From positions 1-44,435 of the forward strand of contig CACZMI010000027.1 in assembly GCA_902782245.1 (NCBI GenBank): a DNA stretch of 44,435 nucleotides. The letters run 5' to 3'. Under the pieces are notes generated by a model that ran no database searches, had not been told where the DNA came from, and saw only the letters and a list, made by a program, of their open reading frames with translations. A program made the position numbers and the translations under genes. This document shows, one piece after another, positions 5,996 to 44,193 of the stretch. The stretch is from an uncultured Bacteroidales bacterium (lineage in GTDB: Bacteria; Bacteroidota; Bacteroidia; Bacteroidales; Bacteroidaceae). Position 1 is the stretch's first letter. Each line of letters begins with the position of its first letter.

Positions 5996-6008
5996 ATACT
6001 TTTACCGT

Positions 6009-6689: not shown

Positions 6690-6747
6690 AAAAGTTTAGT
6701 TTTTTGATTATGAATGTTTTAGTCTTGTGCGCGTAGTAAACAGACTG

Positions 6748-6755
6748 CAAATATA
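6748..6755 (-). promoter_or_regulatory. -7 box of the frdCAB operon
   Basis: The complement reads TATATTTG, matching TAnnTTTG, about 60 bp upstream of frdC. No clear -33 TTTG is at the expected distance. Confidence 0.4.
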
Positions 6756-6794
6756 CTTAAAAGTGTGTATTAATCCTTATCTTTACGGCCACAA

Positions 6795-7856
6795 ATGATT
6801 TCCCAAATGAAAACTATGACTAACCTTTCACTTATGTTTATGTCTGTTTTAGGGCTGTTTTCATGCAACCAGGAAGGCTGGACCGATGCCGGTCCCGATG
6901 AATTCCAGGTAGCCGCCTACTCTCAGGGTACTTGTCTGATTGATGTGCGCACGGCACAGGAGTATGCTGAAGGTCACTTGCTGAATGCTATCAACATTGA
7001 CTGGCAAAAAGGCGGATTTACCGATGAAATAGCCACAAAATTCAACAAAAACCTGACTCTTGCCATATACTGCCGTAGCGGAAGGCGCAGTGCCGAGGCC
7101 GCATCGGCACTTACCGACGCCGGATACAAGGTAATCAATCTGAAGGAGGGTTATCAGAGCTGGACAGCCGCAGGCAAACCTGTAAGCAATTATGAGGTTG
7201 AATGTTTTATGGACGGCAATGAACCCGTCATAATCACACTTATCAAACATGGTACGGTGGCGGTTCTCTACAAGGGATCATACATTCATTTTGACCCGGT
7301 AGGCGGTTACGGCAAGGCCACCGACTATGCAGTGGAGTTCCCCAAGGCCGATGCTGTACTGGTAACACATGAGCACGGCGACCATCTGGACAAGAACGCC
7401 ATAACCGCGCTTTCATCGGATAAAACCATCCTTCTGCTCAATGCCAAATCACAGGGACAGATAGGTATGGGCAAGAGCATTGCCAACTATGAGAAGGCCG
7501 ATCTGCCACAGGGAATCAAACTTGATGTGGTCCCGGCGTACAACACAACTCCCGGACGCGAGCAGTTCCATCCCAAGAACAACGGTAATGGTTATGTGCT
7601 TACGTTCCCCGGTGGATTCAGGCTATATGTGGCCGGTGATACCGAAGATGTTCCGGAGATGGCCGACATCAAGGATATTGACGTGGCGTTCCTGCCGGTA
7701 AACCAACCGTACACAATGACTGTTGAACAGTGTGTAAAGGTGGCTAATGTAATCAAGCCAAAAGTGCTGATTCCATATCATTTCAGCCAGACAGACCTCA
7801 AGGAACTTCCGTCACTCCTGCCCGGTATTGATGTGAGACTCAGAAACATGCAATAA
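6795..7856 (+). CDS. Lipoprotein with rhodanese domain fused to MBL-fold metallo-hydrolase
   Basis: A 353-residue protein. Residues 1-24 form a lipoprotein signal with LGLFS-Cys24. Residues about 35-128 form a rhodanese domain with the active-site loop YCRSGRRSA (Cys93). Residues about 140-353 are a UlaG-like metallo-beta-lactamase fold with H192-x-H194-x-D196-H197 and later metal-ligand regions (VAGDTED, PYHFS). Rhodaneses transfer sulfur from persulfides. MBL partners include persulfide dioxygenases and lactonases, but this MBL module is closer to the UlaG type by eye. The lipobox places it outside the cytoplasm. An alternative start at 6807 (MKTMTNLS) would also preserve the signal. The substrate is unknown. 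Confidence 0.85.
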   Translation: MISQMKTMTNLSLMFMSVLGLFSCNQEGWTDAGPDEFQVAAYSQGTCLIDVRTAQEYAEGHLLNAINIDWQKGGFTDEIATKFNKNLTLAIYCRSGRRSAEAASALTDAGYKVINLKEGYQSWTAAGKPVSNYEVECFMDGNEPVIITLIKHGTVAVLYKGSYIHFDPVGGYGKATDYAVEFPKADAVLVTHEHGDHLDKNAITALSSDKTILLLNAKSQGQIGMGKSIANYEKADLPQGIKLDVVPAYNTTPGREQFHPKNNGNGYVLTFPGGFRLYVAGDTEDVPEMADIKDIDVAFLPVNQPYTMTVEQCVKVANVIKPKVLIPYHFSQTDLKELPSLLPGIDVRLRNMQ

Positions 7857-7874
7857 ACAAAAATCTATCAGCAT

Positions 7875-9275
7875 ATGATGCATTTCAAGAGAATCTGCGT
7901 TACGCTAAGCGTAGCCTTATTTACCGGCATAACATTTGCCCAGACCGAGAAAGATACCGTTTATGTATTCCTTGAGAACATGCCCGATGCCGGCATCTAC
8001 CTGCCGCCACCACCTGACATGCTCAGCCCTCAATACGCCGATGACTTTGCACAGTGGCAGTGGGGCAAGACCGTAAGACCGACTCAGCGCGGCCAGCAGG
8101 CCAACGATGATTCCCAGTGGGGCATAAAGGGAATGATAAGGATACATCAGGAGACCCTTGGATTTGAGATCAGCAAGGAAAAGACCCCTGCCATCTACAG
8201 ACTTTTGTACAATGTACTTTGGACAGAGAATCTGAGCACCCACAACGCCAAACGCAAATACATGCGTACCCGCCCGTTTGCCCAGTACAACGAGCACACA
8301 TGGGGCAGGTTTGACAATGAACGTGAGTTAAGGTTCAACGGCTCGTATCCATCGGGACATACAGGCCTTGGATGGGCAACCGCACTGGTGCTCTCGGAGA
8401 TGGTTCCTGAACTGCAGGACACACTCTTGCGCACAGGCTTCCAGTATGGTGAGAGCCGCGTGATTGTAGGTGCCCACTATCAGAGTGATGTGGATGCCGG
8501 TTACCTTTGCGGAAGTACCGCAGTGGCTGTAATGCACGCCAGTGAGTATTTCCAGAAAGACCTGGAGGCAGCCCGTAAGGAATACTGCAAGATAAAGGGT
8601 ATCAAGAACGTAAGCCAAACCGAGGAATTTCCCGATGGAACCAAGGTTTTTGATGGCCCTGTTACAGAGGATAGCCACCGTTTCTACGGAGATATAATCA
8701 AATACTACGAGACTCTGCCCGAGCGCGAGACCGAGCGTGGTGAGCAGGCCAAGGCCGATGCCGACAACAGTGTTGAAGCTATGATGAAGACTTTCAGCAC
8801 TCCTGCGTTTGAAATAAGCCGCGAGTCCAATCCCGCCATTGCCGCTCTTATGGATTATACAAGGGATAACCTTATCAGAACCGCCGGTGAATTGGGCGGT
8901 ACCACATTCCGTGAGCGCCCCTATGTAAAGCTTAATCCCCGTAGGAACAAGACACTGATCAGCGAGTTTGAGGATTCTTTAAAAGCTACAACCAGTTATC
9001 CTTCAACACATTCAGAGATTGGATGGGGACTTGCCCTGCTGCTTGTAGAGATAGGTCCGCGTGAGGCAGCCAACGATATACTGAACCGCGGATTCGAGTA
9101 CGGCCGCAGCCGCGTCATTGCCGGCTACAACTACCCCAGCGATGTCCAGACCGCCCGCCTGTGGGCATCGGCCACACTGGCTCACCTGCATACCATGCCC
9201 GAATTCCAGAAACTTCTGCAGGCCGCCAAGGACGAACTCAACCCGCCCGCCAAAGGCAAAAAGAAAAAGAAATAA
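7875..9275 (+). CDS. Secreted tandem PAP2-family (class A acid phosphatase-like) protein
   Basis: A 466-residue protein with signal peptide MMHFKRICVTLSVALFTGITFA and two consecutive PAP2 phosphatase domains. The first has a full catalytic set: K-x6-RP (KRKYMRTRP), PSGHT, and SRVIVGAHYQSDV with the nucleophilic His. The second keeps PSTHSEIGW, but its first motif lacks the Lys (GTTFRERP) and its third reads SRVIAGYNYPSDV, with Asn replacing the nucleophilic His. The second domain is therefore probably inactive. The protein ends in a Lys-rich tail. Class A acid phosphatases hydrolyse phosphomonoesters in the periplasm. It follows the rhodanese/MBL gene by 18 bp and may be co-transcribed. Confidence 0.88.
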   Translation: MMHFKRICVTLSVALFTGITFAQTEKDTVYVFLENMPDAGIYLPPPPDMLSPQYADDFAQWQWGKTVRPTQRGQQANDDSQWGIKGMIRIHQETLGFEISKEKTPAIYRLLYNVLWTENLSTHNAKRKYMRTRPFAQYNEHTWGRFDNERELRFNGSYPSGHTGLGWATALVLSEMVPELQDTLLRTGFQYGESRVIVGAHYQSDVDAGYLCGSTAVAVMHASEYFQKDLEAARKEYCKIKGIKNVSQTEEFPDGTKVFDGPVTEDSHRFYGDIIKYYETLPERETERGEQAKADADNSVEAMMKTFSTPAFEISRESNPAIAALMDYTRDNLIRTAGELGGTTFRERPYVKLNPRRNKTLISEFEDSLKATTSYPSTHSEIGWGLALLLVEIGPREAANDILNRGFEYGRSRVIAGYNYPSDVQTARLWASATLAHLHTMPEFQKLLQAAKDELNPPAKGKKKKK

Positions 9276-9289
9276 TCTTTTGTTTCGAG

Positions 9290-10018
9290 CTACTTGAGAG
9301 TTGAAAGGATAATAATGCCGCAGATTCCAATATAGGCATAGACCACGTAACGGAACACCTGCGCAGGAATACGTTCAAAGACCTTGGTTCCGATGTAAGT
9401 GCCCAGAAAGACACCCGCAATACCTGCTACGTAGGCCTTGCAAACGGACATGGTAAGGAATCCGCTACCTGCGCGGAAAAAGGTCATAGCCAGATTGCCC
9501 AGGCAGAAATACATGGAGATTATGGCCATGTAATGGTCCTTATCCTTCTCGGAGGATATGAAATAAAGCACTGCCGGCGGTCCCTGCATGCCAAAGAAAC
9601 CTCCCATGAGTCCGCTCAGGCTACCGGTGATTATCTGCGCTTTCACCGTAGGTTTTATGCGAATCTTGCCTCCCAGAGTGAGGAAATATATGCTTATCAG
9701 GATAAGGATGATGCCAAGCGACACGGTAAGGGACCTGAGCTGCATGCGGGACAGCATGTAGATCGCACCGCCAGAAACCACGATGAATGTTATCAGAATG
9801 GGCCATAGATGCTTCCAGATAATCAGTTTCCACATCCTGCTGCATATGATCAAGGTTGTAGTGAGTGCCAACAATCCGGACAGTGTCGTAGCCTCACCGT
9901 ATGACGGCATCAGGAACGGCAGGACCGTCATGATGAATATCCCGAACCCGAATCCTGTGGTACGCTCCACAAAACTGGCTCCTACGGCAAGCAACGCTAT
10001 GAGAAGATAATCTGTCAT
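9290..10018 (-). CDS. TauE/SafE family sulfite/organosulfonate exporter-like permease
   Basis: A 242-residue integral membrane protein with about eight hydrophobic segments and the two family repeats: ERTTGFGFGIFIMTVLPFLMP near the N-terminus and GSLSGLMGGFFGMQGPPAVLYF in the second half. Family members move sulfite, sulfonates or related anions; the substrate here is not determined. It overlaps the upstream acetyltransferase gene by 4 bp, so the two are translationally coupled. It converges on the PAP2 gene with only 14 bp between stops. Confidence 0.85.
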   Translation of the reverse strand: MTDYLLIALLAVGASFVERTTGFGFGIFIMTVLPFLMPSYGEATTLSGLLALTTTLIICSRMWKLIIWKHLWPILITFIVVSGGAIYMLSRMQLRSLTVSLGIILILISIYFLTLGGKIRIKPTVKAQIITGSLSGLMGGFFGMQGPPAVLYFISSEKDKDHYMAIISMYFCLGNLAMTFFRAGSGFLTMSVCKAYVAGIAGVFLGTYIGTKVFERIPAQVFRYVVYAYIGICGIIILSTLK

Positions 10019-10533
10019 CTGATATCAGTACCCATTATGTAGTCATTCATGTAAAATCCGTTTCCGATGGGGAAATCACCCTGTCTGAGTATAGAGAGTC
10101 CCTGGTTACGGTAGAATCCAACCGCCGGATTGTTACGGTTCACGTTCAACTCAATCCTGGCCTTGACAGACATCTTATTGTCACGCACATGCTGCTTTAC
10201 AGTTTCCAAAAGCCTGTTACCCAGCCCGATACCCTGCGCTGATGGCATGACATAAATCTTTTCCAGGTGCCAAACCTCTGTCCCGTCTGCATCCACAGAA
10301 TCCTTTCTGACCGACACATACCCTTGCGGTTCATCACCAGCCCAAGCAATATAATAGACATGTCCGCGTAGCACCTGATCCTCCAGATTAGGTAAGGAAT
10401 ACATCCATTCCATCATATAATCCATCTGCTCAGGTGACAGTATGGTCTTGTATGTATCTCTAAAAACCACCTCAGCCATCTCATGAATGGTTTGAAGGTC
10501 GTTAGTGCCGGCAAGTCTGATATCGATATCCAT
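10015..10533 (-). CDS. GNAT family N-acetyltransferase
   Basis: A 172-residue protein with a complete GNAT fold. It has an N-terminal strand MDIDIRLAGTNDLQTIHEMA, the central EVWHLEKIYVMPSAQGIGLGNRLL with the acetyl-CoA pyrophosphate-binding Q-G-I-G-L-G, and the late strand ARIELNVNRNNPAVGFYRNQGL. It resembles small ribosomal-protein or amino-acid acetyltransferases, but the acceptor cannot be assigned. It is the first gene of a two-gene operon with the TauE permease. Confidence 0.88.
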   Translation of the reverse strand: MDIDIRLAGTNDLQTIHEMAEVVFRDTYKTILSPEQMDYMMEWMYSLPNLEDQVLRGHVYYIAWAGDEPQGYVSVRKDSVDADGTEVWHLEKIYVMPSAQGIGLGNRLLETVKQHVRDNKMSVKARIELNVNRNNPAVGFYRNQGLSILRQGDFPIGNGFYMNDYIMGTDIR

Positions 10534-10628: not shown

Positions 10629-13052
10629 ATGAAATACAAATCCATTCTGTTTACGGTTTCATCGGCCATAATGCTTATTGGCGTTCAACTCAATGCCAAG
10701 GTTGTAAACCAAAATACCGCACAAAGTGTTGCCAACGATTTTCTGTTGTCAAAAGGTATTGAAGCAAAGGAACTGATTCCTGTCCATCAGGATTCGGATC
10801 CTGCGGTTATGCATGCTCCATCTATTGATGGCAAGGCTCCTGCATACCATATTTTCAGCGACAGGGAACACAATGCTGTCATTGTAGTTGCGGGAGATGA
10901 CATGGCCCGTCCCATTTTGGGATATTCATTCAGTCCTGATCAGGATGCTGACGGCAATTATCCGCCTGCCATGAAGGATTGGCTGGATGAAATGGAAAGA
11001 CAGATAGATTATGCGCGCAACAGCGGATTGCCGGACAAGGCTATCCGTCAACAGAACCTTCCTTATAACTCGGTAAACGTAATCAAGCAATTGACAACTG
11101 CCCAATGGGGACAGTCTTTCCCATTCAACTTATATTGTCCTTCCATTGGTATGCAGACCTGCTTAACCGGTTGCGTGGCCACATCATATGCCATCCTCAT
11201 GAAATATTATGGCTCTCCTTATGGAGGAAATGGCCGTACTCAGGGATACATCAGTTCCAAAACCGGAGTTTCTGTCGCTCCCAGAGACCTTAACCACTCA
11301 TATCAGTGGGACAGGATGCCGTTGGAAATAACACAAGAAACATCTTCTGAACAGTTCCATGAAATAGCAATGTTAATGGCAGATATAGGGGCTGCCATAC
11401 AAGCCGACTACGGAACCGACGAGACATCGGCCGGTTATGATAAACAGGCTATATTTGCCCACTTTGGGTATAATAACGGCTTATACAGGCAGCAAAGCGA
11501 TTACTCTGCCCAGGAATGGTATTCAATGATTAAAAGCCAGTTGGACAATAACCGTCCTGTGCTTTATAATGCAAAGACTTCCGATAACAGCGGTGCCCAC
11601 AGTTTTATCATAGACGGATATGCCCAAGACGATTACTTCTGCATAAACTGGGGTTGGGAAGGACAATATAACGGAGTATTTGCTCTTAATGCCATGGATC
11701 TGGATTTTACCGATTACAACGGCCTGCAGAGTGCCTATTTCGATTTCCAGTCGGCTGCCGGCATGCCTACAGTCGCTGTCGTAAATGACAGCATCAACTG
11801 CCCTTCAGTTGAGGCGGCTATGGGTGTTGTTTCTCTTGTCAACCAACCCGCCAGAATAACTCTGGTACAGAACAGCGTTACGGATGAGGTATTTGTCAAG
11901 AACGGCCAGAACGTTATACTGGATCTTAACGGCCACACACTTGATATTGAAAAATGGGGATTTTTCAACTATGGTACTCTTACTGTAAAAGACACCGATG
12001 GAAACGGAAAAATCAACATAACAAGAGGTAATACAGCTATTCTCAACAACTACGGGAATCTGACGGTAGAAGGGGGTAATTTTACCAATCTGATGGCAAA
12101 GAGCAGTAGTACGGATTATCGCAGATGCATTTGGAATGACGCATATGGTACAGTCCGCGTCAAGGACGGAAAATTCACGTGCAACGGACAGGTAGTTTGC
12201 AACAACGGCAAACTGACCATTGATAAAGGCTCGTTCCAATGCACGGACGACAGCGATATTCTGGTCAATTTTTCACGAAACGACACTCTTACAGTCAATG
12301 GAGGAACTTTCCAGACCACAGTAGAAGGCAATTACTGCAGAAACATCTGGACAGCAGACAAGACTGTAACAATCATAAACGGAGGCTCGTTCCTGAGTAA
12401 TAAGACTGTCATTTGTCTGAACGGTGACGCAACCATCAACAACGGTCAGTTCAGGTGTGCAGGTGATGCAACCACAATTGTCAATTACTGTAAGACAGGA
12501 ACCCTTACAATCAACGGAGGAACATTCAGGAATTCATTGAAAAATAACGGCAATTACCACAGGGCCGTATGGACCGATTCAGAAACCTACACACACATTA
12601 CAGGAGGTGTATTCATCAGTTATTTCCAGACTGTTACTGTCAACGGTGATGCCTTGATAGATGGCGGATCATTTGAGAGTTACGGATCGGCAGGAATTCT
12701 TTCGGCAGGTAACGTTATTATAAACAACTGCAAACTGAAGGCTGACAATTGGATTCTCTATGCGGCGGAAGGTTTTTCTATCAAATGTTACGGCGGATTA
12801 TATTCAAAGACTGTAAGTAATGAATTTTTGGGTAACGGCAGCGTATGCAGCAGAAACACAGACAGCGCTACATCGTCAACCTATCCATATAAGGTTGTAA
12901 ACACCCTGAACGGCATAAATCCTGTATATAGGCAGGATGATATCCGGGATATCAACTATGATTTGAACGGTATTGTGATTCCGGACAACAACCCTGGTAT
13001 CCATATAATACGCAACTCGGAAGGTAAGGCTGTCAAGGTACTGGTAAAGTAA
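10629..13052 (+). CDS. Secreted C10 (streptopain-like) cysteine peptidase with beta-helix tail
   Basis: An 807-residue protein. A signal peptide (about 1-23) is followed by a prodomain of the Spi/streptopain type (about 24-150). The catalytic domain has TCLTGCVATSYA (Cys182) and GAHSFIIDGY (His324), then the family's INWGWEGQYNGVF. Residues about 390-760 contain repeated strand-turn units such as LTVNGGTF, LTINGGTF and VTIINGGSF, spaced as in a right-handed parallel beta-helix of the pectate-lyase superfamily type. C10 enzymes are secreted proteases (SpeB, Bacteroides Bfp). No type IX sorting domain is obvious at the C-terminus. The beta-helix may bind a surface or glycan. Confidence 0.88.
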   Translation: MKYKSILFTVSSAIMLIGVQLNAKVVNQNTAQSVANDFLLSKGIEAKELIPVHQDSDPAVMHAPSIDGKAPAYHIFSDREHNAVIVVAGDDMARPILGYSFSPDQDADGNYPPAMKDWLDEMERQIDYARNSGLPDKAIRQQNLPYNSVNVIKQLTTAQWGQSFPFNLYCPSIGMQTCLTGCVATSYAILMKYYGSPYGGNGRTQGYISSKTGVSVAPRDLNHSYQWDRMPLEITQETSSEQFHEIAMLMADIGAAIQADYGTDETSAGYDKQAIFAHFGYNNGLYRQQSDYSAQEWYSMIKSQLDNNRPVLYNAKTSDNSGAHSFIIDGYAQDDYFCINWGWEGQYNGVFALNAMDLDFTDYNGLQSAYFDFQSAAGMPTVAVVNDSINCPSVEAAMGVVSLVNQPARITLVQNSVTDEVFVKNGQNVILDLNGHTLDIEKWGFFNYGTLTVKDTDGNGKINITRGNTAILNNYGNLTVEGGNFTNLMAKSSSTDYRRCIWNDAYGTVRVKDGKFTCNGQVVCNNGKLTIDKGSFQCTDDSDILVNFSRNDTLTVNGGTFQTTVEGNYCRNIWTADKTVTIINGGSFLSNKTVICLNGDATINNGQFRCAGDATTIVNYCKTGTLTINGGTFRNSLKNNGNYHRAVWTDSETYTHITGGVFISYFQTVTVNGDALIDGGSFESYGSAGILSAGNVIINNCKLKADNWILYAAEGFSIKCYGGLYSKTVSNEFLGNGSVCSRNTDSATSSTYPYKVVNTLNGINPVYRQDDIRDINYDLNGIVIPDNNPGIHIIRNSEGKAVKVLVK

Positions 13053-13082
13053 GCCTTCAAAGGCTCAATATTTGGAGTTTGT

Positions 13083-14957
13083 ATGGACTTTAAGTATGAT
13101 GTGATAGTGATAGGTGCAGGGCATGCGGGTTGTGAAGCCGCCGCCGCTGCCGCTCAGATGGGTTCCAAGACCTGTCTGATAACCATGGACATGAACAAGA
13201 TTGCCCAAATGAGTTGCAATCCTGCCGTTGGAGGTATAGCTAAAGGACAGATTGTCAGAGAGATAGATGCTCTCGGCGGCCACATGGGACTTGTTACTGA
13301 CCGTACTGCCATACAGTTCCGAATACTTAACCGATCCAAAGGCCCCGCCATGTGGAGCCCCCGCGCACAGTGTGATCGGGCCAAATTCATCTGGGCCTGG
13401 CGCAGTGTCCTGGAGAACCAGCCAAACCTTAACATCTGGCAGGACACAGTGACCGAACTGCTTGTAAAAGACGGTCAAGTGATTGGTTTAAAGACACTTG
13501 AGGGTGCTGAATTCTCCTGCAGATGCGTAGTTCTGACCGCCGGAACATTCCTGAACGGACTCATGCATATAGGCCGTGTAACCATGCCCGGCGGACGCAT
13601 ATCGGAACCTGCATCATACCTGCTTACCGAGTCCATAACTCGTCACGGAATACGTACCGGCCGCATGAAAACCGGAACACCCGTACGTATAGACAAGCGG
13701 AGTGTCCACTTTGAGGATATGGAGCGCCAGGACGGCGAGAATGATTTTCACCGTTTCTCTTTCATGGGCTCCGAGCGCCATCTCAAACAGATGTGCTGCT
13801 GGACCACATACACAAATGAAAAAGTCCATGAGGTGCTCAAATCTGGTCTGGCAGACTCACCTCTGTTTAACGGACAGATCAAAAGCATCGGCCCGCGGTA
13901 TTGCCCCAGCATAGAGACCAAACTGGTAACATTCCCCGATAAGGACCAGCATCAGCTGTTTCTGGAGCCGGAGGGCGAAGAAACCAATGAGATGTACCTG
14001 AACGGATTCTCATCGTCCATGCCCATGGACATACAGATACGTGCGCTCAAGGAGATCCCGGCCTTCCGCGACCTGGTAATTTTCCGTCCCGGTTATGCCA
14101 TAGAATATGATTACTTTGATCCCACCCAACTTAAGCATACACTTGAGTCTAAGGTGATATCGGGCCTTTTCATGGCCGGGCAGGTTAACGGCACCACAGG
14201 ATACGAGGAGGCTGGAGGTCAGGGAATCCTTGCCGGCATAAACGCACACATAACCTGCCACGGCGGAACACCGTTCACCCTGGCCCGCGATGAGGCATAC
14301 ATAGGAGTTCTGGTGGATGACCTGATAACAAAGGGTGTTGACGAGCCCTACCGTATGTTTACATCAAGGGCCGAGTACCGCATACTGCTGCGTCAGGATG
14401 ATGCCGATATCCGCCTGACAGAACGTTCCTACAACATAGGTCTTGCCACAAAGGAACGCTACGACAAGATGCGCACCAAGCGTGACGAGATAAACCGCAT
14501 AGTTGATTTTGCAAAGGGATTCTCCGTAAAACCGGCATTGATCAACGATGCACTTGAAAGTCTTGGCACCACACCGCTGCGTGAGGGATGCAAACTGGCC
14601 GACCTTATTGAAAGGCCACAGTTGACACTTGAAAACCTGGCTCCGCACATCAAGGCCCTCAGGGCTGAAATTGACAAAACCGAGCCCGTGCGCAGGGACG
14701 AGATAGTTGAGGCCGCCGAGATACTGATGAAATACAGCGGATACATAAGCCGCGAGCGTCTTATTGCCGATAAGATGAAACGCCTTGAAGACATCCGCAT
14801 CAAGGGTCGCTTTGATTACAGTTCACTCCAGTCTCTCTCAACAGAGTGCCGTCAGAAACTGATAAAACACGACCCGGAAACCCTTGCCGAGGCAAGACGT
14901 ATCCCCGGCGTTTCGCCCAGCGACATAAATGTCCTGCTGGTGCTTCTGAACCGATAA
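13083..14957 (+). CDS. mnmG: tRNA uridine-5-carboxymethylaminomethyl modification enzyme MnmG (GidA)
   Basis: A 624-residue FAD enzyme that works with MnmE to modify U34 of several tRNAs. The N-terminus has the dinucleotide-binding VIVIGAGHAGCEAAAAAAQMG. The family signatures MSCNPAVGGIAKGQIVREIDALGG and GPAMWSPRAQCDRAKF follow, then GQVNGTTGYEEAGGQGILAG and the C-terminal helical domain that contacts MnmE. Length is standard. The start ATG is 30 bp after the upstream gene. A parS-like site lies between it and apt. mnmG is often near the chromosomal origin. Confidence 0.97.
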   Translation: MDFKYDVIVIGAGHAGCEAAAAAAQMGSKTCLITMDMNKIAQMSCNPAVGGIAKGQIVREIDALGGHMGLVTDRTAIQFRILNRSKGPAMWSPRAQCDRAKFIWAWRSVLENQPNLNIWQDTVTELLVKDGQVIGLKTLEGAEFSCRCVVLTAGTFLNGLMHIGRVTMPGGRISEPASYLLTESITRHGIRTGRMKTGTPVRIDKRSVHFEDMERQDGENDFHRFSFMGSERHLKQMCCWTTYTNEKVHEVLKSGLADSPLFNGQIKSIGPRYCPSIETKLVTFPDKDQHQLFLEPEGEETNEMYLNGFSSSMPMDIQIRALKEIPAFRDLVIFRPGYAIEYDYFDPTQLKHTLESKVISGLFMAGQVNGTTGYEEAGGQGILAGINAHITCHGGTPFTLARDEAYIGVLVDDLITKGVDEPYRMFTSRAEYRILLRQDDADIRLTERSYNIGLATKERYDKMRTKRDEINRIVDFAKGFSVKPALINDALESLGTTPLREGCKLADLIERPQLTLENLAPHIKALRAEIDKTEPVRRDEIVEAAEILMKYSGYISRERLIADKMKRLEDIRIKGRFDYSSLQSLSTECRQKLIKHDPETLAEARRIPGVSPSDINVLLVLLNR

Positions 14958-14965
14958 AAACAAAA

Positions 14966-14981
14966 TGTTCCACGTGAAACA
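14966..14981. promoter_or_regulatory. parS-like centromere site
   Basis: TGTTCCACGTGAAACA is identical to the Bacillus subtilis parS consensus bound by ParB/Spo0J and shows its near-perfect dyad around CACGTG. It occupies the 35-bp space between mnmG and apt. ParB nucleates here, spreads, and loads SMC/condensin. parS sites generally cluster around the replication origin. Confidence 0.85.
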
Positions 14982-14992
14982 ATTTAAAAGAT

Positions 14993-15538
14993 ATGAGTAA
15001 ACAGACGCTTATCAGCCACCTCAGGAATATCCCTGATTATCCCATGGAGGGCGTTCAGTTTAAGGATGTAACTTCATGGTTTATGAATCCCGATGACTTG
15101 AAAGAGATTGTAGATTCTCTTTATGAAATGTACAAAGACAAGGGCATAACCAAGGTCTGCGGCGTAGAATCCAGGGGATTCATAGTAGGTGCTGCACTTG
15201 CTTATAGATTGGGAGCAGGCTTTGTTCCTATCCGTAAACCGGGCAAACTTCCTTACGAGAAGGTAAGCATTGAGTACAAGAAGGAATACGGATTTGACCG
15301 CGTAGAGATGCACAAGGACTCTATCAACAGCAATGATGTGGTGCTTATTCATGATGACCTTCTGGCAACCGGAGGTACACTTCTGGCTTCACAGAAACTG
15401 GTTCAGTCACTGGGTCCCAAGAAGATACTGATAAACTGCATCATCGAGCTCACAAATTTCCATGCAAAGGATCTGTTCCCAAAGGAGTGCTCGGTGGACA
15501 GTTTCATAGCAATTGATGAATTTGACGGAGTAAACTGA
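14993..15538 (+). CDS. apt: Adenine phosphoribosyltransferase
   Basis: A 181-residue cytosolic enzyme of purine salvage that makes AMP from adenine and PRPP. It shows the family N-terminus LRNIPDYPMEGVQFKDVT, the middle region CGVESRGFIVGAALAYRLGAGFVPIRKPGKLP and the PRPP-binding loop VVLIHDDLLATGGTL. Length is typical. uvrC begins 1 bp after its stop, so apt-uvrC-dtd form one transcription unit, probably continuing into deoC. Confidence 0.96.
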   Translation: MSKQTLISHLRNIPDYPMEGVQFKDVTSWFMNPDDLKEIVDSLYEMYKDKGITKVCGVESRGFIVGAALAYRLGAGFVPIRKPGKLPYEKVSIEYKKEYGFDRVEMHKDSINSNDVVLIHDDLLATGGTLLASQKLVQSLGPKKILINCIIELTNFHAKDLFPKECSVDSFIAIDEFDGVN

Positions 15539-37787: not shown

Positions 37788-37966
37788 GAAATGCTCGTGT
37801 TTTTACTGCATTTCCAATTATTAGGACTTCTTTATTCATAAGCTTTTACAAAAATGTAATGTCATTTATATGGAAAACAACCACTTAAAACAAAGGCATC
37901 TTTCCCTGTTGCGTTAAAGATCCTTAACGGAACGGAGATTTCCAGTCAAAAGTGTTGTGTGTTGTA

Positions 37967-38002
37967 TCAAAAAGTTTTTGATTTGCATCAACACAAATTT
38001 GT
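37967..38002 (+). promoter_or_regulatory. Candidate BlaI operator/promoter region, cassette 1
   Basis: Two palindromes lie just upstream of the repressor start: TCAAAAA-G-TTTTTGA (37967-37981) and ACAAATTTGT (37993-38002). The second, together with GTTTGCTT up to the start codon, is repeated exactly before the second repressor gene (41221-41230). BlaI-type repressors bind short dyads near their own promoter, so these are candidate operators. This is an inference. Confidence 0.4.
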
Positions 38003-38008
38003 TTGCTT

Positions 38009-38368
38009 ATGAGACAACTCACCAAAAAGGAAAAAATCATCATGGAGCAGTTCTGGACCTATGGTCCCATGTTTGTACGTGAACTGCAGGAGCATTATGA
38101 GGAACCCCGTCCCAATTTCAACACTCTCTCCAATCAGGTTCATACACTTATGGAGGACGGTTTCCTGGAGCGCAAAGCCTTTGGAAGCAACTATCAGTAC
38201 TCACCTGCCGTATCACGCAAGGCATACAGTCTGGACGGCTTCCACGGGCTGGTAAATGAATACTTTGACAGCTCATACTCAAGCGTAGTCCTGGGACTGG
38301 TCGAGGAGGAGCGTCTGTCAGTTGATGACCTCAAGCGTATTATTGACAAAATTGAAAACCGCAAATGA
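38009..38368 (+). CDS. BlaI/MecI/CopY family repressor, cassette 1
   Basis: A 119-residue winged-helix regulator starting at ATG 38009 (MRQLTKKEKIIMEQFWTYGP). The HTH covers MFVRELQEHYEEPRPNFNTL and SNQVHTLMEDGFLERKAFG; the C-terminal helices form the dimerisation and cleavage region typical of BlaI. BlaI repressors hold the operon off until the membrane protease partner triggers their cleavage. The downstream M56 gene overlaps by 4 bp. It differs from the cassette 2 repressor at only four residues. Confidence 0.92.
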   Translation: MRQLTKKEKIIMEQFWTYGPMFVRELQEHYEEPRPNFNTLSNQVHTLMEDGFLERKAFGSNYQYSPAVSRKAYSLDGFHGLVNEYFDSSYSSVVLGLVEEERLSVDDLKRIIDKIENRK

Positions 38369-40263
38369 ATACTCAAGTCCTTTTATTCCTTGGGAAGGCG
38401 GCTCTGCTAACCATTGCCTTTGTTCTTATGTACCGCCTTTTGTTGCGTCGCGAAACATTTCACGGCCTTAAGCGTGGAGCCCTGATGCTTTCGCTTGTAC
38501 TCTCCTATGTTCTCCCCGTAACTGTCATAACAGTACATCGTGATATACGCAAGAACCCGGTGGCTCAGACCGTAGCATCCGCTCAACCAGCGGCTACTCC
38601 AATAAATCAGATCCAACCTTTCTCTCCTGTTGCACAAACAATTGCTCCTGCGCCATCGGTATCGGCCACAGAGAACGCAGCAGAACAGGCACCTACAGTA
38701 CACAAGGATAAAACCGCTGTACTGTTCCAGATCCTGTTGGCTGCATATCTGGCCGGTCTCATTGTAATGCTCCTGCTCAGGGTACGCTCCATCCTGAAGG
38801 TATCGGCCATAGTAAGGGGTGGAGAGACCGTAGAACGCGGTAACGGCTACAGGATTGTTGTTACCGATAAGAACGTAAGCCCGTTCAGCTGGCTTGGAAC
38901 CATAGTGGTGAGTCAGAAGGAGTATGCCGGAATAGACCGCAATGTCTTAAGGCATGAGAAAGCCCACATAGCACACCGCCATCCGCTGGAACTCATGCTG
39001 CTTGATTTCATGTCTCTATTCCAGTGGTTTAACCCCGCCGTCTGGGTATTGCGCCGCGACCTCTGCCTTGTACATGAGCAGCAGGCCGATGCCGACGTCC
39101 TGAAATCCGTGCCCGATGCCCGTCCGTACCAGTTCATGCTACTCAGTCAGTCTCAGGGAGGCCTTGCATTCAATATCGTGGCAAGTTTCAACGGCAACGG
39201 TGTTGAGAGCCGCATTGACATGATGAACCGCAAAAGGTCCGGTCGCAGTCAGATGATCAGGTTCCTTTATTTACCGGTTGTCATGTGTGTTTCGCTTACA
39301 ATGAGCGCAAATGTGGCATATGACAAAGCTTCTGCTGAATCAGAAACTGCGGTTCAACCCGATTCCATAATTGGAGTAAATTTCTTTACGACCAAGATGG
39401 GAGAATTACCTTTTGGAGGGGTGCCAACCAGAACTGACGGAAAAGAGTTCCTTTACTACCTGGACGGAAAACGAGTTGACAGGGCAACAATTGAAAACCT
39501 CTCTTATTCGGATATTAAATCCCATACGTTAGTCAGAGATAAAGCTGCTGTTGACTTATACGGCCCGGAGGCGGAAAACGGTGTATTGGTATACGTAACC
39601 AAAAGTGGTTCAGCCGACGATAGTGATACAAATCAGTCTGCTGTATCCAATAATGAAAAAACGACTCATGATTATGTTGACCTGGGTTTGTCTGTAAAAT
39701 GGGCTACATGTAACGTGGGGGCCGATAAGCCCGAGGATAATGGTAATTTATACGCCTGGGGAGAAACGGAGGTCAAAGAACAATACACTATGAGGACAAG
39801 CAAGTGGGGATTTATGCCCTTTTCATTGAAAAAATATAATATAAACAGTGAACAAGGCACGGTTGACAACAAGACCACACTTGACCTTGAAGATGATGTC
39901 GCTCATGTAACTTGGGGAGGCAACTGGCGTATGCCCACTAGGGAAGAAATGGATGAGTTGCATGACAACTGCACTTGGGAGTGGACAACTATCAACGGTG
40001 TAAACGGATATCGGGTTACAAGTAAAAAGCAAGGTTATACAAACCGTTCCATATTCCTTCCTGCATCCGGATACAAAGCAAACGGATTTTACGAATATGG
40101 AAGAAATGGTAACTATTGGTCGCGTTCGCTTATGACAGATCCTTATGGAGATGGTAGTGTAACATGTGGTACTGCAGCCTGTATCCGTTTTAATAATAAT
40201 CAAGCTAATATTGGTTGGGAGGATCGAATGGCTGGTCTTTCTGTCCGTCCCGTCTGCCCGTAA
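38365..40263 (+). CDS. BlaR1-like M56 membrane metallopeptidase with FISUMP-like C-terminal domain, cassette 1
   Basis: A 632-residue protein. N-terminal helices are followed by the M56 zinc protease domain with VLRHEKAHIAHRHP (H197-E-x-x-H201) and RDLCLVHEQQADADVL (H237, E238). The last helix is FLYLPVVMCVSLTMSA. Outside the membrane comes a plug-like segment (DGKRVDRATIENL, then DKAAVDLYGPEAENGVLVYVTK). It is followed by a Fib_succ_major/FISUMP-like domain (YVDLGLSVKWATCNVGADKP, GGNWRMPTREEMDEL, end LSVRPVCP). True BlaR1 proteins carry a penicillin-binding sensor here; none is present. The likely role is a signal-transducing protease that cleaves the BlaI partner in response to an unknown ligand. 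Confidence 0.88.
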   Translation: MNTQVLLFLGKAALLTIAFVLMYRLLLRRETFHGLKRGALMLSLVLSYVLPVTVITVHRDIRKNPVAQTVASAQPAATPINQIQPFSPVAQTIAPAPSVSATENAAEQAPTVHKDKTAVLFQILLAAYLAGLIVMLLLRVRSILKVSAIVRGGETVERGNGYRIVVTDKNVSPFSWLGTIVVSQKEYAGIDRNVLRHEKAHIAHRHPLELMLLDFMSLFQWFNPAVWVLRRDLCLVHEQQADADVLKSVPDARPYQFMLLSQSQGGLAFNIVASFNGNGVESRIDMMNRKRSGRSQMIRFLYLPVVMCVSLTMSANVAYDKASAESETAVQPDSIIGVNFFTTKMGELPFGGVPTRTDGKEFLYYLDGKRVDRATIENLSYSDIKSHTLVRDKAAVDLYGPEAENGVLVYVTKSGSADDSDTNQSAVSNNEKTTHDYVDLGLSVKWATCNVGADKPEDNGNLYAWGETEVKEQYTMRTSKWGFMPFSLKKYNINSEQGTVDNKTTLDLEDDVAHVTWGGNWRMPTREEMDELHDNCTWEWTTINGVNGYRVTSKKQGYTNRSIFLPASGYKANGFYEYGRNGNYWSRSLMTDPYGDGSVTCGTAACIRFNNNQANIGWEDRMAGLSVRPVCP

Positions 40264-40285
40264 CATTATCAATTAAAAATGCATT

Positions 40286-41178
40286 ATGAAAAAGACTGTC
40301 CATCATATAGCATTGACATGCATACTGATGTCGATCGGCTTTACTGTGAGTGCTCAACAGATACGATATTCTGTTGAATCAACACAGCCTTTCAATCTCA
40401 ATACAATTAATAACAGAGCGTCTGTTGAAGAAGTCTTCCGCAGTAATCAGGACTTCGTAAAGTTTAAAGATAACGACGTATTGATGATAAAAGGAAACGA
40501 AACGCATCAATTACCTGAAAACAGCAAGGTAGTATATAGTGAGGAATCTCAGGGAGTAGATAAAAATAACCTCCCTGAACATGAATACGTTGACCTGGGC
40601 TTATCAGTAAAATGGGCCACCTGTAATGTGGGTGCTGAAAGACCCCAGGATAAAGGCGATCTCTTTGCCTGGGGTGAGACTGAGCCTAAGTCTGAATACA
40701 CTATGTCCAATTATAAGTTCAGCATAAATGGCAGTTATGATGACTTTACCAAGTATAACTATAAAGACCGTAAGAACAGATTGGAACCAGAAGATGACGC
40801 GGCGGCGGAAACTGGCGTATTCCCACAACAGGTGAGTGGAAAGAGTTGATGGGCAAGTGTACCTGGAGTTATGTAAAGATGAAGGATGGAACCGAAGGGT
40901 TCCGTATAAGAGGTAATAAGCGAGGCTATAGAGATCGCTCCATTTTTCTTCCATTTACCGTGTATAGAGATTCTACCAGCGTTGTAGAGGGTGAGTCTAT
41001 AGGTGAAGGCCAGTATGCAGGCCTCTATTGGACATGCTTCCTTGTTGATGACGAACTTGTACTGAAGATGAACGGTATATGTGATGCGTGGGGTATGTGG
41101 CTTGAGCCGGATGTGAACTTCCATGCATCAATGGTGCAACGCAACTTGGGCCGTGCTATCCGTCCCGTCTGCGAGTAA
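40286..41178 (+). pseudogene. Secreted FISUMP-like protein, cassette 1, frameshifted by a small deletion
   Basis: The frame opens with a signal peptide (MKKTVHHIALTCILMSIGFT) and reaches the domain start EYVDLGLSVKWATCNVGAER. After LEPEDDAA it goes out of frame and stops at 40849. The C-terminal half (GGNWRIPTTGEWKELMGKCT, then GRAIRPVCE) continues in another frame to 41178. Compared with the paralogues (DDVAHVTWGGNWRMP), the HV-x-WG segment is missing, about 13 bp, near 40800-40808. Both halves are otherwise well preserved. It lies 22 bp after the M56 gene and is likely co-transcribed. Confidence 0.8.
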
Positions 41179-41184
41179 TTACAC

Positions 41185-41219
41185 AAAATGATACAAAAGG
41201 GGTCTGTCCCCTTTTGTAC
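41185..41219. repeat. Hairpin repeat, right copy (terminator-like)
   Basis: A 35-bp sequence related to 37275-37309. Here the stem is longer and perfect: TACAAAAGGGG and CCCCTTTTGTA around TCTGT. It ends cassette 1 and lies 17 bp before the start of the second repressor gene. It may therefore act as terminator and boundary of the duplication. Confidence 0.75.
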
Positions 41220-41220
41220 C

Positions 41221-41230
41221 ACAAATTTGT
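41221..41230 (+). promoter_or_regulatory. Candidate BlaI operator, cassette 2
   Basis: ACAAATTTGT followed by TTGCTTATG is identical to the sequence before the cassette 1 repressor. The rest of the upstream region differs, so this dyad is the conserved regulatory candidate. Confidence 0.4.
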
Positions 41231-41236
41231 TTGCTT

Positions 41237-41596
41237 ATGAGACAACTCACCAAAAAGGAAAAAATCATTATGGAGCAGTTCTGGACCTATGGTCCTATGT
41301 TTGTCCGAGAACTGCAGGAACATTATGAGGAACCCAGACCTAATTTCAACACTCTCTCCAATCAGGTACATACCCTTATGGAAGATGGGTTCCTGGAGCG
41401 CAAGGCTTATGGAAGCAACTACCAGTACATCCCTGTAGTGTCACGGAAGGCATACAGTCTGGACGGTTTCCACGGGCTGGTAAATGAATACTTTGACAGT
41501 TCTTACTCGAGCGTAGTCCTTGGACTGGTTGAGGAGGAGCGCCTGTCTGTTGACGATCTTAAACGTATTATTGACAAAATTGAAAAAAGAAAATGA
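41237..41596 (+). CDS. BlaI/MecI/CopY family repressor, cassette 2
   Basis: A 119-residue winged-helix repressor starting at ATG 41237. It differs from the cassette 1 protein only at KAYG, YIP, PVV and EKRK. The recognition helix is unchanged, so both repressors should bind the same operators. It overlaps the following M56 gene by 4 bp, as in cassette 1. Confidence 0.92.
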   Translation: MRQLTKKEKIIMEQFWTYGPMFVRELQEHYEEPRPNFNTLSNQVHTLMEDGFLERKAYGSNYQYIPVVSRKAYSLDGFHGLVNEYFDSSYSSVVLGLVEEERLSVDDLKRIIDKIEKRK

Positions 41597-43515
41597 ATAC
41601 TCAAGTCCTTTTATTCCTTGGAAAGGCGGCATTGCTAACCATTGCCTTTGTTCTTATGTACCGCCTTTTGTTGCGTCGTGAAACATTTCATGGCCTTAAA
41701 CGCGGAGCTTTGATGCTCTCGCTGGTTCTCTCTTACGTTCTCCCCTTGACCGTAATTACGGTGCATCGTGATGTCCGCAAGAGCCCTGCTGCTCAGACCG
41801 TAACGGCCAGTCAGCCCGTTGCTGCTCCCATAAATCAAATCCAACCCATCTTTCCTGTTGCAGAAACAAGTGCTCCCGCACAAACAGTAACCGGAACAGA
41901 AAGCGCAGCAATCCAGGCACCGGTAGAGAAGGACAAAACCGCTGTGCTGCTTCAGATTCTACTGGCTGCTTATCTGGCAGGTCTAATTGTAATGTTCATG
42001 CTCAGGATACGCTCCATACTTAAGGTTTCGGCCATAGTAAGAGGCGGAGAGACAGTTGAACGCGGTGACGGTTACAGGATTGTTGTGACCCATAAGAACG
42101 TGAGTCCGTTCAGCTGGCTTGGAACCATAGTCCTGCGTGAAAAGGATTATGCCGGTATTGACAACAATGTCTTAAGACATGAGAAAGCCCATATTGCACA
42201 CGGCCATCCGTCAGAACTGATGCTGCTTGATTTCATGTCGCTGTTCCAGTGGTTCAACCCCGCCGTCTGGGTATTGCGCCGTGACCTGTGCCTTGTACAT
42301 GAGCAGCAGGCCGATGCCGATGTCCTGAAATCCGTGCCCGATGCCCGTCCGTACCAGTTTATGCTGCTCAGTCAGTCTCAGGGAGGCTTGGCATTCAATA
42401 TCGTGGCCAGTTTCAACGGCAACGGAGTAGAGAGCCGCATAGACATGATGAACCGCAAACGGTCCGGCCGCCGTCAGATGCTCAGGTTCCTCTATTTACC
42501 GGTAGTAATGTGCATATCACTTACATTGACCGCAAATGTGGCTTATGACAAGATTTCAGGTGAATCTACAGTTTCGTCAGATACAGTATATACCTATACA
42601 GTTAACGGACAAGAAGGAAAAATAGTGGTGCTGGACATGAACACACTGACATTAGGAAATGATCAGGTAGGAATAGGCAAAAAACCTGATAATGATTATA
42701 TATACTTTGTTGACGGGAAAAGAGTTGACAGGGAAACTGTAAACAACATCAGGTTTTTGGATATTAAATCCCAGTTTACAATAATGGATAAGGCTGCAAC
42801 TGACTTATATGGTCCTGAAGCAGTGAATGGCGTTCGTGTCATCGAAACAAAAGGAGGTACTGTAATAGAAGGTGAATTGAAGCGACCTGAAATATTCAAG
42901 GATGACAAAATAGCCCATGAATATGTTGACCTGGGTTTATCTGTAAAATGGGCTACCTGTAATGTTGGTGCCCGCAAACCTGAAGACAATGGAAATTTGT
43001 ACAGTTGGGGAGAAATCGGACCCACCGATATATACGATCCTTTAAGTAGGCTGACAAGTAAGTGGGGTTCTAATTTGTCAGGATTTACAAAATACAATTT
43101 GGATAGCGAAAACGGCACTGTTGATAACAAGACCACGCTTGACCCTGAAGATGATGTTGCTCATGTTGTCTGGGGGGGTAAATGGCGTATGCCTACAAAG
43201 CAAGAACAGGTTGAATTGCGTAACAATTGTACCTGGGAGTGGACAACTCTAAACGGTGTAAACGGTTATCGTGTTACAAGTAAAATACCAGGTTATACAG
43301 ACCGCTCAATCTTTCTCCCGGCAGCCGGTGCCGCAGATAACCTTCGCTATGAATATGGCTCAACAGGTTATTATTGGTCAAGTTCTATCGAGTCTCTAGA
43401 TGACGGAAGGGTGTTGTGTTTTTCTGCAGCCATCATTAATATTACAAGCAGATATGCAGCTATATCCATGGGAAGTCGAGAATGCTGTTATTCCGTCCGT
43501 CCCGTCTGTCAGTAA
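41593..43515 (+). CDS. BlaR1-like M56 membrane metallopeptidase with FISUMP-like C-terminal domain, cassette 2
   Basis: A 640-residue paralogue of the cassette 1 protease. The first 315 or so residues are nearly identical, with the same zinc motif VLRHEKAHIAHGHP and LVHEQQADADVL. The following periplasmic linker is clearly different (TYTVNGQEGKIVVLDMNTLT). The plug-like segment (DGKRVDRETVNNI, then DLYGPEAVNGVRVIETK) and the N-terminal half of the FISUMP-like domain are similar again. The last 60 residues diverge strongly but end in the common YSVRPVCQ. The mosaic pattern suggests conserved signalling with altered ligand recognition. Confidence 0.88.
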   Translation: MNTQVLLFLGKAALLTIAFVLMYRLLLRRETFHGLKRGALMLSLVLSYVLPLTVITVHRDVRKSPAAQTVTASQPVAAPINQIQPIFPVAETSAPAQTVTGTESAAIQAPVEKDKTAVLLQILLAAYLAGLIVMFMLRIRSILKVSAIVRGGETVERGDGYRIVVTHKNVSPFSWLGTIVLREKDYAGIDNNVLRHEKAHIAHGHPSELMLLDFMSLFQWFNPAVWVLRRDLCLVHEQQADADVLKSVPDARPYQFMLLSQSQGGLAFNIVASFNGNGVESRIDMMNRKRSGRRQMLRFLYLPVVMCISLTLTANVAYDKISGESTVSSDTVYTYTVNGQEGKIVVLDMNTLTLGNDQVGIGKKPDNDYIYFVDGKRVDRETVNNIRFLDIKSQFTIMDKAATDLYGPEAVNGVRVIETKGGTVIEGELKRPEIFKDDKIAHEYVDLGLSVKWATCNVGARKPEDNGNLYSWGEIGPTDIYDPLSRLTSKWGSNLSGFTKYNLDSENGTVDNKTTLDPEDDVAHVVWGGKWRMPTKQEQVELRNNCTWEWTTLNGVNGYRVTSKIPGYTDRSIFLPAAGAADNLRYEYGSTGYYWSSSIESLDDGRVLCFSAAIINITSRYAAISMGSRECCYSVRPVCQ

Positions 43516-43582
43516 CGACAAACTCTTACAATACGCATAATAAACTTATATCAGTTAAATAACAAACATAAAGAATAGCATT

Positions 43583-44193
43583 ATGAGAAAGAAAGACCTT
43601 TGTTTTGCATTGACATGCATACTGATGTCAATTGGCGTTCCCGCAAGTGCACAGCACGAGTTCGTGGATCTAGGTTTGAGTGTAAAATGGGCCACCTGTA
43701 ATGTAGGTGCCGATAGGCCCGAGGATGCTGGTGATTTGTACTCCTGGGGTGAAACTGAAACCAAAACAAACTATAGTTTTGCCACCTATAAGTTCTGTGT
43801 GGATGGCAAGCAGGGTAATTATACCAAGTATTGCGATAAAGACAATAAAACGGTATTGGACCAGGAAGATGATGTGGCTCATGTCAAGTGGGGCGGCAGA
43901 CCTGGACAAAAGTGAACGGGGTTAATGGTTATCGTGTATCGGGTAAAAAAGAGGGATTTGAGAATAACTCCATCTTCCTTCCGGTCAACGTTCATAATAG
44001 CTCAAACGCAATAGAACATGGCATGCCTGCAGAATTCGGCCTTTATTGGTCAAGCTCACTAAGTTATAATGCCAACAGTTTCTTTATGGGACGTTGGGAT
44101 CATGCTAACGGGTATTCGTTCTTTCAGGATACGCCGACGGGTAACGCCAGTTTCCGTAACGAAGGCCAATCCGTCCGTCCCGTCCACCCGTAA
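43583..44193 (+). pseudogene. Secreted FISUMP-like protein, cassette 2, frameshifted by an internal deletion
   Basis: A signal peptide (MRKKDLCFALTCILMSIGVP) leads directly into HEFVDLGLSVKWATCNVGAD, and the frame stops at 43915 just after VKWGG. The rest (TWTKVNGVNGYRVSGKK, then GQSVRPVHP) reads in another frame to 44193. The paralogues have about 20 more residues here (NWRMPT through NNCTWEW), so roughly 65 bp is missing at about 43895-43902. The product would be a single-domain secreted protein without the N-terminal extension seen in cassette 1. Confidence 0.8.

Follow-up and report, generated by a model that had tools for sequence, protein, structure and literature searches.

BlaR1-type proteases are known mainly as antibiotic alarms. 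In BlaR1/BlaI and MecR1/MecI, a repressor gene overlaps the gene for an M56 membrane protease with four transmembrane (TM) helices, an HExxH motif between TM3 and TM4, and a C-terminal extracytoplasmic domain; there is also an operator palindrome, and a secreted product is encoded alongside. The product that BlaR1 regulates acts on the same drug that is sensed. According to an excerpt of PMC7593790, the BlaR1 sensor resembles class D β-lactamases. Here we describe a locus from an uncultured Bacteroidales bacterium that shares this layout, with an operator-like palindrome of its own. The window that we analyzed is an entire contig (C27; 44,435 nt) of a 2.51-Mb metagenome-assembled genome (MAG) that has 98 contigs and is 85.7% complete. 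The nearest named relatives of this MAG are fore-stomach and "RUG" MAGs of Bacteroidaceae, Bacteroidales, or Prevotellaceae. The locus consists of two head-to-tail cassettes, each with a BlaI-type repressor gene, an M56 receptor gene, and a gene for a secreted-type protein (Table 1). Unlike BlaR1 and MecR1, the receptors lack a penicillin-binding domain and have a plug-like segment followed by a domain of about 200 residues that we call FIS; in some relatives, the ectodomain is made of leucine-rich repeats (LRR). The sensor should be periplasmic, the two cassettes lie behind one palindrome, and the sensor appears to be exchanged as a module. We think it reasonably probable that the locus encodes a transmembrane relay of the BlaR1/BlaI type whose sensor is exchangeable and which would induce its own secreted protein. 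Below, L, G, and C followed by a number are our labels for loci, genomes, and contigs, and G000 is the genome that contains the window.

Table 1. Features of the two-cassette locus, in window coordinates.
Feature	Position	Strand	Details
Operator-like palindrome ATCAAAAnnnTTTTGAT	37966-37982	+	ATCAAAA-AGT-TTTTGAT; -43 to -26 relative to the ATG of the first repressor
BlaI-type repressor, copy A	38009-38368	+	PF03965 (Penicillinase_R), E 2.6e-20, 73.3 bits (cut-off 22.6)
M56 receptor A, 632 aa	38365-40263	+	PF05569, E 5.2e-11, 42.7 bits (cut-off 31)
HEKAH motif of receptor A	38953-38967		aa 197; HEQQAD at aa 237
FIS domain of receptor A	39655-40260		after plug-like segment at ~aa 352-425
Secreted FIS gene S1, frame-broken	40286-41178	+	ORFs 40286-40849 and 40846-41178, in different frames
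REP-like palindrome ACAAAAGGGGTCTGTCCCCTTTTGT (ACAAAAGGGGNNNGNCCCCTTTTGT)	41193-41217		54 copies across the genome; this one lies between S1 and repressor B
BlaI-type repressor, copy B	41237-41596	+	PF03965, E 1.3e-20, 74.3 bits (cut-off 22.6)
M56 receptor B, 640 aa	41593-43515	+	PF05569, E 1.3e-11, 44.7 bits (cut-off 31)
HEKAH motif of receptor B	42178-42192		aa 196; HEQQAD at aa 236
FIS domain of receptor B	~42907-43509		after plug-like segment
Secreted FIS gene S2, frame-broken	43583-44193	+	ORFs 43583-43915 and 43888-44193, in different frames
Start of third gene, cut by contig end	44298-44435	+	same leader type; in L075, the corresponding FIS protein has 319 aa

The repressors and the receptors all match their Pfam families above the cut-offs, each M56 gene overlaps its repressor gene by 4 nt, and the two repressor proteins are 97% identical. 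Both receptors have the signature of the M56 family (HExxH and a downstream ExxxD) between TM3 and TM4. This motif, with ExxxD or ExxxN, is present in 79 of 81 M56 open reading frames (ORFs) of at least 300 amino acids. The predicted model of receptor A has four TM helices, and the predicted local distance difference test (pLDDT), averaged by block, is about 80–93 across most of the TM helices and the protease. The model is weak near residues 61–114 and 261–280 and is poor past TM4, with block pLDDT of 65 or less in the FIS part. When this model was compared to the PDB with Foldseek, the five best matches were all BlaR1 entries. Entry 8exr, which is the TM and protease part of BlaR1, aligned at 2.9 Å across 184 columns; longer BlaR1 entries aligned only at 14–18.5 Å, which is expected because most of the ectodomain is unmodelled. 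In the predicted model, then, the TM and M56 part of the receptor matches BlaR1.

We found no penicillin-binding, transpeptidase, or class D β-lactamase-like family in the receptors (Pfam, E up to 1). The BlaR1 models of NCBIfam were far under their cut-off (26.9 bits of 400) and matched the protease part only. As neither database places a penicillin-binding family in these proteins, we rejected β-lactam sensing; judged by sequence, these are BlaR1-type receptors with a non-β-lactam ectodomain and not β-lactam receptors. A preliminary description of this DNA, made from the sequence, had proposed two sets of a repressor and an overlapping M56 protease, with nearly identical repressors and a receptor for something other than β-lactams, and all of this holds up. 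It had also placed the signalling at the cell surface. The phylum of the host is of the Gram-negative type, and given a BlaR1-like topology in such a host, the sensor domain, which follows TM4, should be periplasmic instead.

The FIS domains of receptors A and B are 64% identical, and they are related to the secreted ORFs downstream. The preliminary description was right that receptors and secreted proteins share a domain, which it likened to Fib_succ_major. However, Pfam's Fib_succ_major (PF09603) does not match any receptor or partner, and has just one weak match in the genome, at another place. The nearest Pfam family is Lcl_C (PF07603, formerly DUF1566), which is under its cut-off in receptor A (E = 7e-4; 20.3 bits of the 34.9 needed) and which, with an E limit of 1, does not match receptor B. 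With this same limit, 11 of 18 members of the FIS family have weak Lcl_C matches. None of the 17 Lcl_C matches in the MAG is above the cut-off, and one FIS relative on a different type of receptor (L087; chassis 2, see below) passes it with 37.2 bits. An excerpt of PMC4159848 reports that the Fib_succ_major and DUF1566/Lcl_C families resemble each other and serve as targets of diversity-generating retroelements, so the earlier label of "FISUMP-like" is fair but loose.

FIS is therefore in the same domain neighbourhood as the Lcl_C/DUF1566 and Fib_succ_major proteins, going by the weak Lcl_C matches. Unlike those proteins, it is fused here to a signalling protease and it is below the Pfam cut-off; also, we found no reverse transcriptase (RVT_1) in the MAG, in a scan that did not include any search aimed at template repeats. 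Given the incompleteness of the MAG, we set a diversity-generating retroelement aside but did not exclude it. There is no solved relative of FIS by sequence, and no lectin entry is among the 50 listed structure matches of the receptor model, whose FIS part has low confidence. The genome contains 46 stretches that match FIS, sometimes several per gene, of which six come from the four window genes described here; the domain is not special to the cassettes. On a Prevotella plasmid record, a distant FIS relative carries an annotation for sorting by the type IX secretion system.

To describe related loci, we use "chassis 1" for the repressor and the M56 membrane/protease part of the window's type, and "chassis 2" for M56 receptors with a MRRLTKKER-type repressor. 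Our survey of M56-FIS receptors covers this genus, with relatives taken from the matches listed. L075 and L077 contain the two-cassette locus as well, and L076, L078, L079, L086, and L173, some of which are cut by contig ends, have one of the two cassettes. As it recurs in relatives, the BlaI/M56 two-cassette arrangement is beyond chance. In sister species, among the matches listed, a chassis that is 73–89% identical to that of receptor A carries LRR ectodomains. Pfam identifies these as BspA-type (LRR_5) in L080, L081, and L084; those of L082, L083, L085, and of the first cassette in L078/L175 were recognized by similarity.

The gene that follows the receptor changes with the ectodomain. A FIS-family gene lies directly after 11 of 11 chassis-1 FIS receptors and directly after 0 of 7 chassis-1 LRR receptors; these counts represent three FIS receptor types (A, B, and C) and two LRR types, and are not independent. 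The 11 FIS receptors are A and B of the window, of L075, and of L077, and those of L076, L078, L079, L086, and L173. Two of these cases are partial: the contig ends 70 residues into the L079 partner, and the L086 receptor is seen in part. After LRR type 1 receptors, the next gene encodes an esterase with CBM48 (L081); partners with the same leader are found in L078/L175, L082, L083, and L085, of which those in L082 and L083 run off the end of the locus. After LRR type 2 receptors, the next gene encodes a secreted-type protein of 195–196 amino acids, which has no Pfam family (as scanned for L080); the L084 protein resembles the L080 protein at its start.

To compare the histories of these parts, we measured divergence as the fraction of fourfold sites that differ, and used a neighbouring aldolase-like gene as the yardstick. 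Between L075 and L077, the yardstick has a divergence of 0.48 and the M56-B chassis of 0.32, versus 0.01 for FIS-B and 0.00 (of 93 sites) for S2. For type A in the same pair, the divergence is 0.37 for the chassis, 0.07 for the plug, 0.11 for FIS, and 0.08 for S1. The window and L078 show identity of 0.99–1.00 from about position 42557, which is just past TM4, through S2, and identity falls to 0.53 within about 200 bases past the end of S2. In LRR type 1, where there is no yardstick gene, the divergence is 0.31–0.42 for the chassis, 0.06–0.19 for the ectodomain (10 pairs), and 0.15–0.17 for the esterase (3 pairs). Also, the chassis of L077-A shares 94% identity with that of an LRR receptor (L083), versus 74–78% with the other type A chassis. 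These contrasts imply that the chassis has a history separate from that of the sensor, which travels with the next gene. The ectodomain and the next secreted gene have, as the alignments indicate, been swapped between species as a block, most clearly for cassette B.

Upstream of the first repressor is the palindrome ATCAAAAnnnTTTTGAT. It is the sole exact site in the genome, and the next best site has two mismatches. All ten of the readable first cassettes that we examined have such a palindrome at -45 to -26 (the window, L075, L076, L077, L079, L080, L081, L082, L084, and L085). The upstream region is not readable in three related loci: L083 in G009 is masked, the contig of L086 (G008) starts within the receptor, and L173 is at the start of contig C84 in G022. 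The arms are constant save for one base in one arm of L079, while the spacer varies. Among 37 genomes of the genus, the pattern with at most one mismatch has 15 sites in 15 genomes. Thirteen of these are directly upstream of this repressor, including one at a contig end (G014), and two one-mismatch sites (in G034 and G027) are not. The reversed pattern, as a control, gave no sites in any genome searched. When the upstream regions were shuffled, a 7-3-7 palindrome arose in 7–25 of 500 shuffles, and some palindrome with 6-bp arms arose in 123–199 of 500. Because shuffles yield palindromes too, the weight of this one lies in its conservation, place, and uniqueness rather than in its single occurrence.

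The palindrome is absent upstream of repressor B in all four second cassettes (the window, L075, L077, and L078). The sequence between S1 and repressor B contains a repetitive extragenic palindrome (REP)-like hairpin (-18.1 kcal/mol; z = -3.3), which also precedes the second cassettes in L075, L077, and L078. We rejected it as a second dedicated operator, given its number of copies in the genome; its hairpin may serve in processing or termination. Since the only copy of ATCAAAAnnnTTTTGAT in the genome precedes the first cassette and the second has none, a single putative operator probably serves all six genes, with two interchangeable repressors, and we infer that the six genes are co-transcribed. 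The near-identity of the repressors and the single operator-like site also make cross-regulation of the two cassettes likely, as was proposed originally. Upstream of chassis-2 repressors in several loci is a different palindrome with the same 7-3-7 layout (AGCGAAAnnnTTTCGCT or a close variant), which suggests that chassis 1 and chassis 2 operate without cross-talk.

In the relay that we propose, a periplasmic ectodomain of plug-like and FIS parts would take the place of the penicillin sensor. Without a signal, the BlaI-type repressor would sit on ATCAAAAnnnTTTTGAT and repress its own operon. Binding of a ligand to the ectodomain would activate the M56 domain, the repressor would be cleaved, and the operon would then be expressed, including the repressor and receptor of each cassette and the secreted FIS proteins. 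By analogy with BlaR1, the secreted FIS protein would be an output that acts on whatever the receptor senses. The sensor and the output gene would be a unit that is exchanged among species on a conserved chassis. An excerpt of PMC11162425 describes the C-terminal domain of Lcl as a C-type-lectin-like trimer that binds glycosaminoglycans. By analogy with this domain, the ligand might be a glycan or an envelope or secreted polymer.

Several observations weigh against this relay or parts of it. First, neither output gene is intact in this assembly. S1 is 13 nt shorter than its intact relatives (L075, L076, L077, and L086), and its counterpart in these loci and in L173 is a single 301-aa ORF. S2 is 55 nt shorter, and its counterpart in L075, L077, and L078 is a single 221-aa ORF. 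An intact secreted protein after each receptor, as originally described, is thus found in relatives; in the window it was obtained by reading through the frameshifts. Both deletions are in the same conserved block, WGGxWRxPT, a motif that is repeated many times across the genome, and they could be assembly errors or real decay. In locus L175 of another genome (G020), the two BlaI copies (5538–5855 and 12305–12595) show a disruption in one shared part of the N-terminal domain, as if the assembly had gone wrong at near-identical repeats, so we lean towards assembly error for S1 and S2 as well.

Second, FIS genes crowd the chassis-1 loci, which makes the adjacency of receptor and partner less striking. 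FIS ORFs, partners included, account for 21 of 117 ORFs (134 kb) in the 12 chassis-1 loci versus 5 of 687 (708 kb) in the other 65 M56 loci, a comparison that favours the chassis-1 loci, as the FIS profile was built mostly from them. The secreted FIS genes might then be the cargo of a FIS-rich island, with no functional link to the receptors. The 46 FIS stretches in the genome are consistent with this, and the state of S1 and S2 indicates that the secreted genes can be lost; also, in the chassis-2 locus L100, a FIS gene follows a receptor that lacks FIS. We consider this explanation quite unlikely because the spacing is fixed (22 nt from receptor A to S1 and 67 nt from receptor B to S2), because ectodomain and partner are exchanged as one block, and because the LRR receptors of chassis 1 do not have a FIS gene immediately after them. 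On the other hand, physical linkage alone could explain the joint movement without functional coupling.

Third, the association of FIS receptors with FIS genes does not extend to chassis 2. We saw eight FIS receptors on chassis 2, and among the four with a next gene (one of them partly masked), it is never a FIS gene. The preliminary description had suggested looking across Bacteroidales for co-occurrence of receptor and secreted partner. As far as our survey of this genus goes, co-occurrence holds for chassis 1 and fails for chassis 2. In chassis 1, L173 combines a type C receptor (74% identical to B and 61% to A) with an S1 partner, and we rejected a strict one-to-one pairing of receptor and partner for this reason. 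Type A is also more mixed than type B: the window's type A plug has a divergence of 0.28–0.32 from L075, L076, and L077 and of 0.11 from L079, and the value of 0.28 from L075 exceeds the yardstick for that pair (0.19). Finally, given the low confidence of the FIS model, the assignment of its fold rests on the weak similarity to Lcl_C, and the guess of a glycan ligand is thin because the binding lysines of Lcl are, as stated in the excerpt of PMC11162425, poorly conserved in other Legionella.

In all 11 of the close cases, receptor and product share a domain, which is what would be expected if the ectodomain touches the secreted FIS protein itself and the relay gauges how much product is left in the envelope. 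The trimers reported for the Lcl C-terminal domain would fit such feedback. Another M56 locus of the same genome has a comparable arrangement: L010 on contig C14 encodes a 1518-aa M56-LRR receptor (5614–10170) and, one gene past it, a free 1138-aa LRR protein (11726–15142) that is 51% identical to the receptor's ectodomain. To examine the similarity of partner and sensor, we hand-picked the L075 proteins and four other FIS proteins, which gave seven other sequences for each receptor domain. S1 is the least similar of the seven to the FIS domain of receptor A (41%), and S2 is sixth of seven by score against that of receptor B, no closer than most. Neither partner is closer to the receptor domain than the other FIS sequences in this hand-picked set, so we rejected the idea that the partner is a recent copy of it. 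Together with the absence of a homologous product next to the LRR receptors of chassis 1 (0/7) and the mixed pairing in L173, these comparisons make feedback unlikely. The preliminary description's suggestion that the partner competes with, delivers, or mimics the ligand, of which such feedback covers delivery and mimicry, fares no better, for the same reasons and because of the chassis-2 receptors and L100.

The secreted partners have an N-terminal leader that we recognized by eye. Secreted-type proteins of differing content, including those at 12002–14459 in L075 and at 8931–11712 in L076, in L081, and in others, have a near-identical leader (MRKxVLLLALTSxLMSLC...). With a strict pattern, this leader is present in 9 of the 26 FIS ORFs that are not M56 proteins. 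It is as if the 5' ends of the genes that share this leader had been exchanged or separately conserved. A model of S1, from the L075 copy, had a mean pLDDT of 45, so we left it out of the fold search; in the receptor model, too, the ectodomain was too weak for a fold to be named.

The conserved chassis, the boundary near TM4, and the variety of ectodomains (FIS types A, B, and C and two LRR types), with sensor and next gene moving together, also bring to mind polymorphic recognition. In that case, the ectodomain and the next gene would be a variable cassette, similar to toxin/immunity or self-recognition systems, and the chassis would report contact with kin, rivals, or phage. We consider this very doubtful: among the partners that we scanned, none has a Pfam family that resembles toxins or immunity proteins, the partner of LRR type 1 in L081 is a CBM48-bearing esterase, and the MAG has no reverse transcriptase match. 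As for a mobile or viral origin, a test that detects close relatives only, with six peptide patterns of receptor A, matched no viral contig. Plasmid records gave seven partial matches to receptor A, all below 60% identity, and none that span 80% of the receptor.

Of these explanations, we prefer the BlaR1-type relay with an exchangeable sensor. The locus is more than was first described, as it has exchangeable blocks of sensor and output on one chassis with one putative operator. It is also less, as the secreted genes are broken here and a ligand role for the secreted proteins has no specific support. More tentatively, and with less confidence than for the relay itself, we propose a family of plug-in receptors, in which one chassis with its own palindrome takes up different ectodomains (Lcl_C-related or LRR) along with the output gene, and FIS is also used in sigma/anti-sigma relays. 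In L089 (2152–3782), a gene for an extracytoplasmic function (ECF) sigma factor overlaps the gene for a 352-aa FIS protein that has a charged N-terminus and a single hydrophobic stretch, with a plug-like piece and FIS at its end. We call this protein "anti-sigma-like" as a label; a Pfam scan of it found no anti-sigma family. It has full-length relatives in G012 (100% identical), G014, and G011. In our MAG, L177 (contig C3, 8009–11123) encodes a sigma factor, a small protein with a hydrophobic stretch, a free plug-plus-FIS protein, another small protein, and a FIS protein. The place of FIS in these sigma/anti-sigma-like loci supports the idea that it is an input domain. The gene order of L178 (G036) is similar to that of L177.

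Other M56 proteins of Bacteroidota with a long C-terminal extension are encoded beside BlaI as well. Contig C40 of our MAG contains two such M56 genes, both with TonB_C and one with CarboxypepD_reg. Unlike the cassettes described here, these proteins do not carry FIS, and contig C40 has no FIS match. Among the chassis-2 loci, L087, L094, L102, and L103 have two or three FIS stretches, along with Big_2 in L087, and L092 and L100 have weak matches to RHS repeats that are below the cut-off.

Among the matches listed from the open-licence literature in PubMed Central, none described an M56 receptor whose ectodomain is FIS or LRR. If our reading is correct, then rumen bacteria would have a modular kind of sensing, in which sensor and response are inherited as one exchangeable cassette. 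Repeated swaps of the sensor on a relay that is kept would show what the relay needs and which other inputs can be sensed. The Lcl_C-like and BspA-LRR proteins of gut bacteria, which are widespread and obscure, would gain a signalling role that can be tested. With its one conserved palindrome, the circuit lends itself to a direct reporter test.

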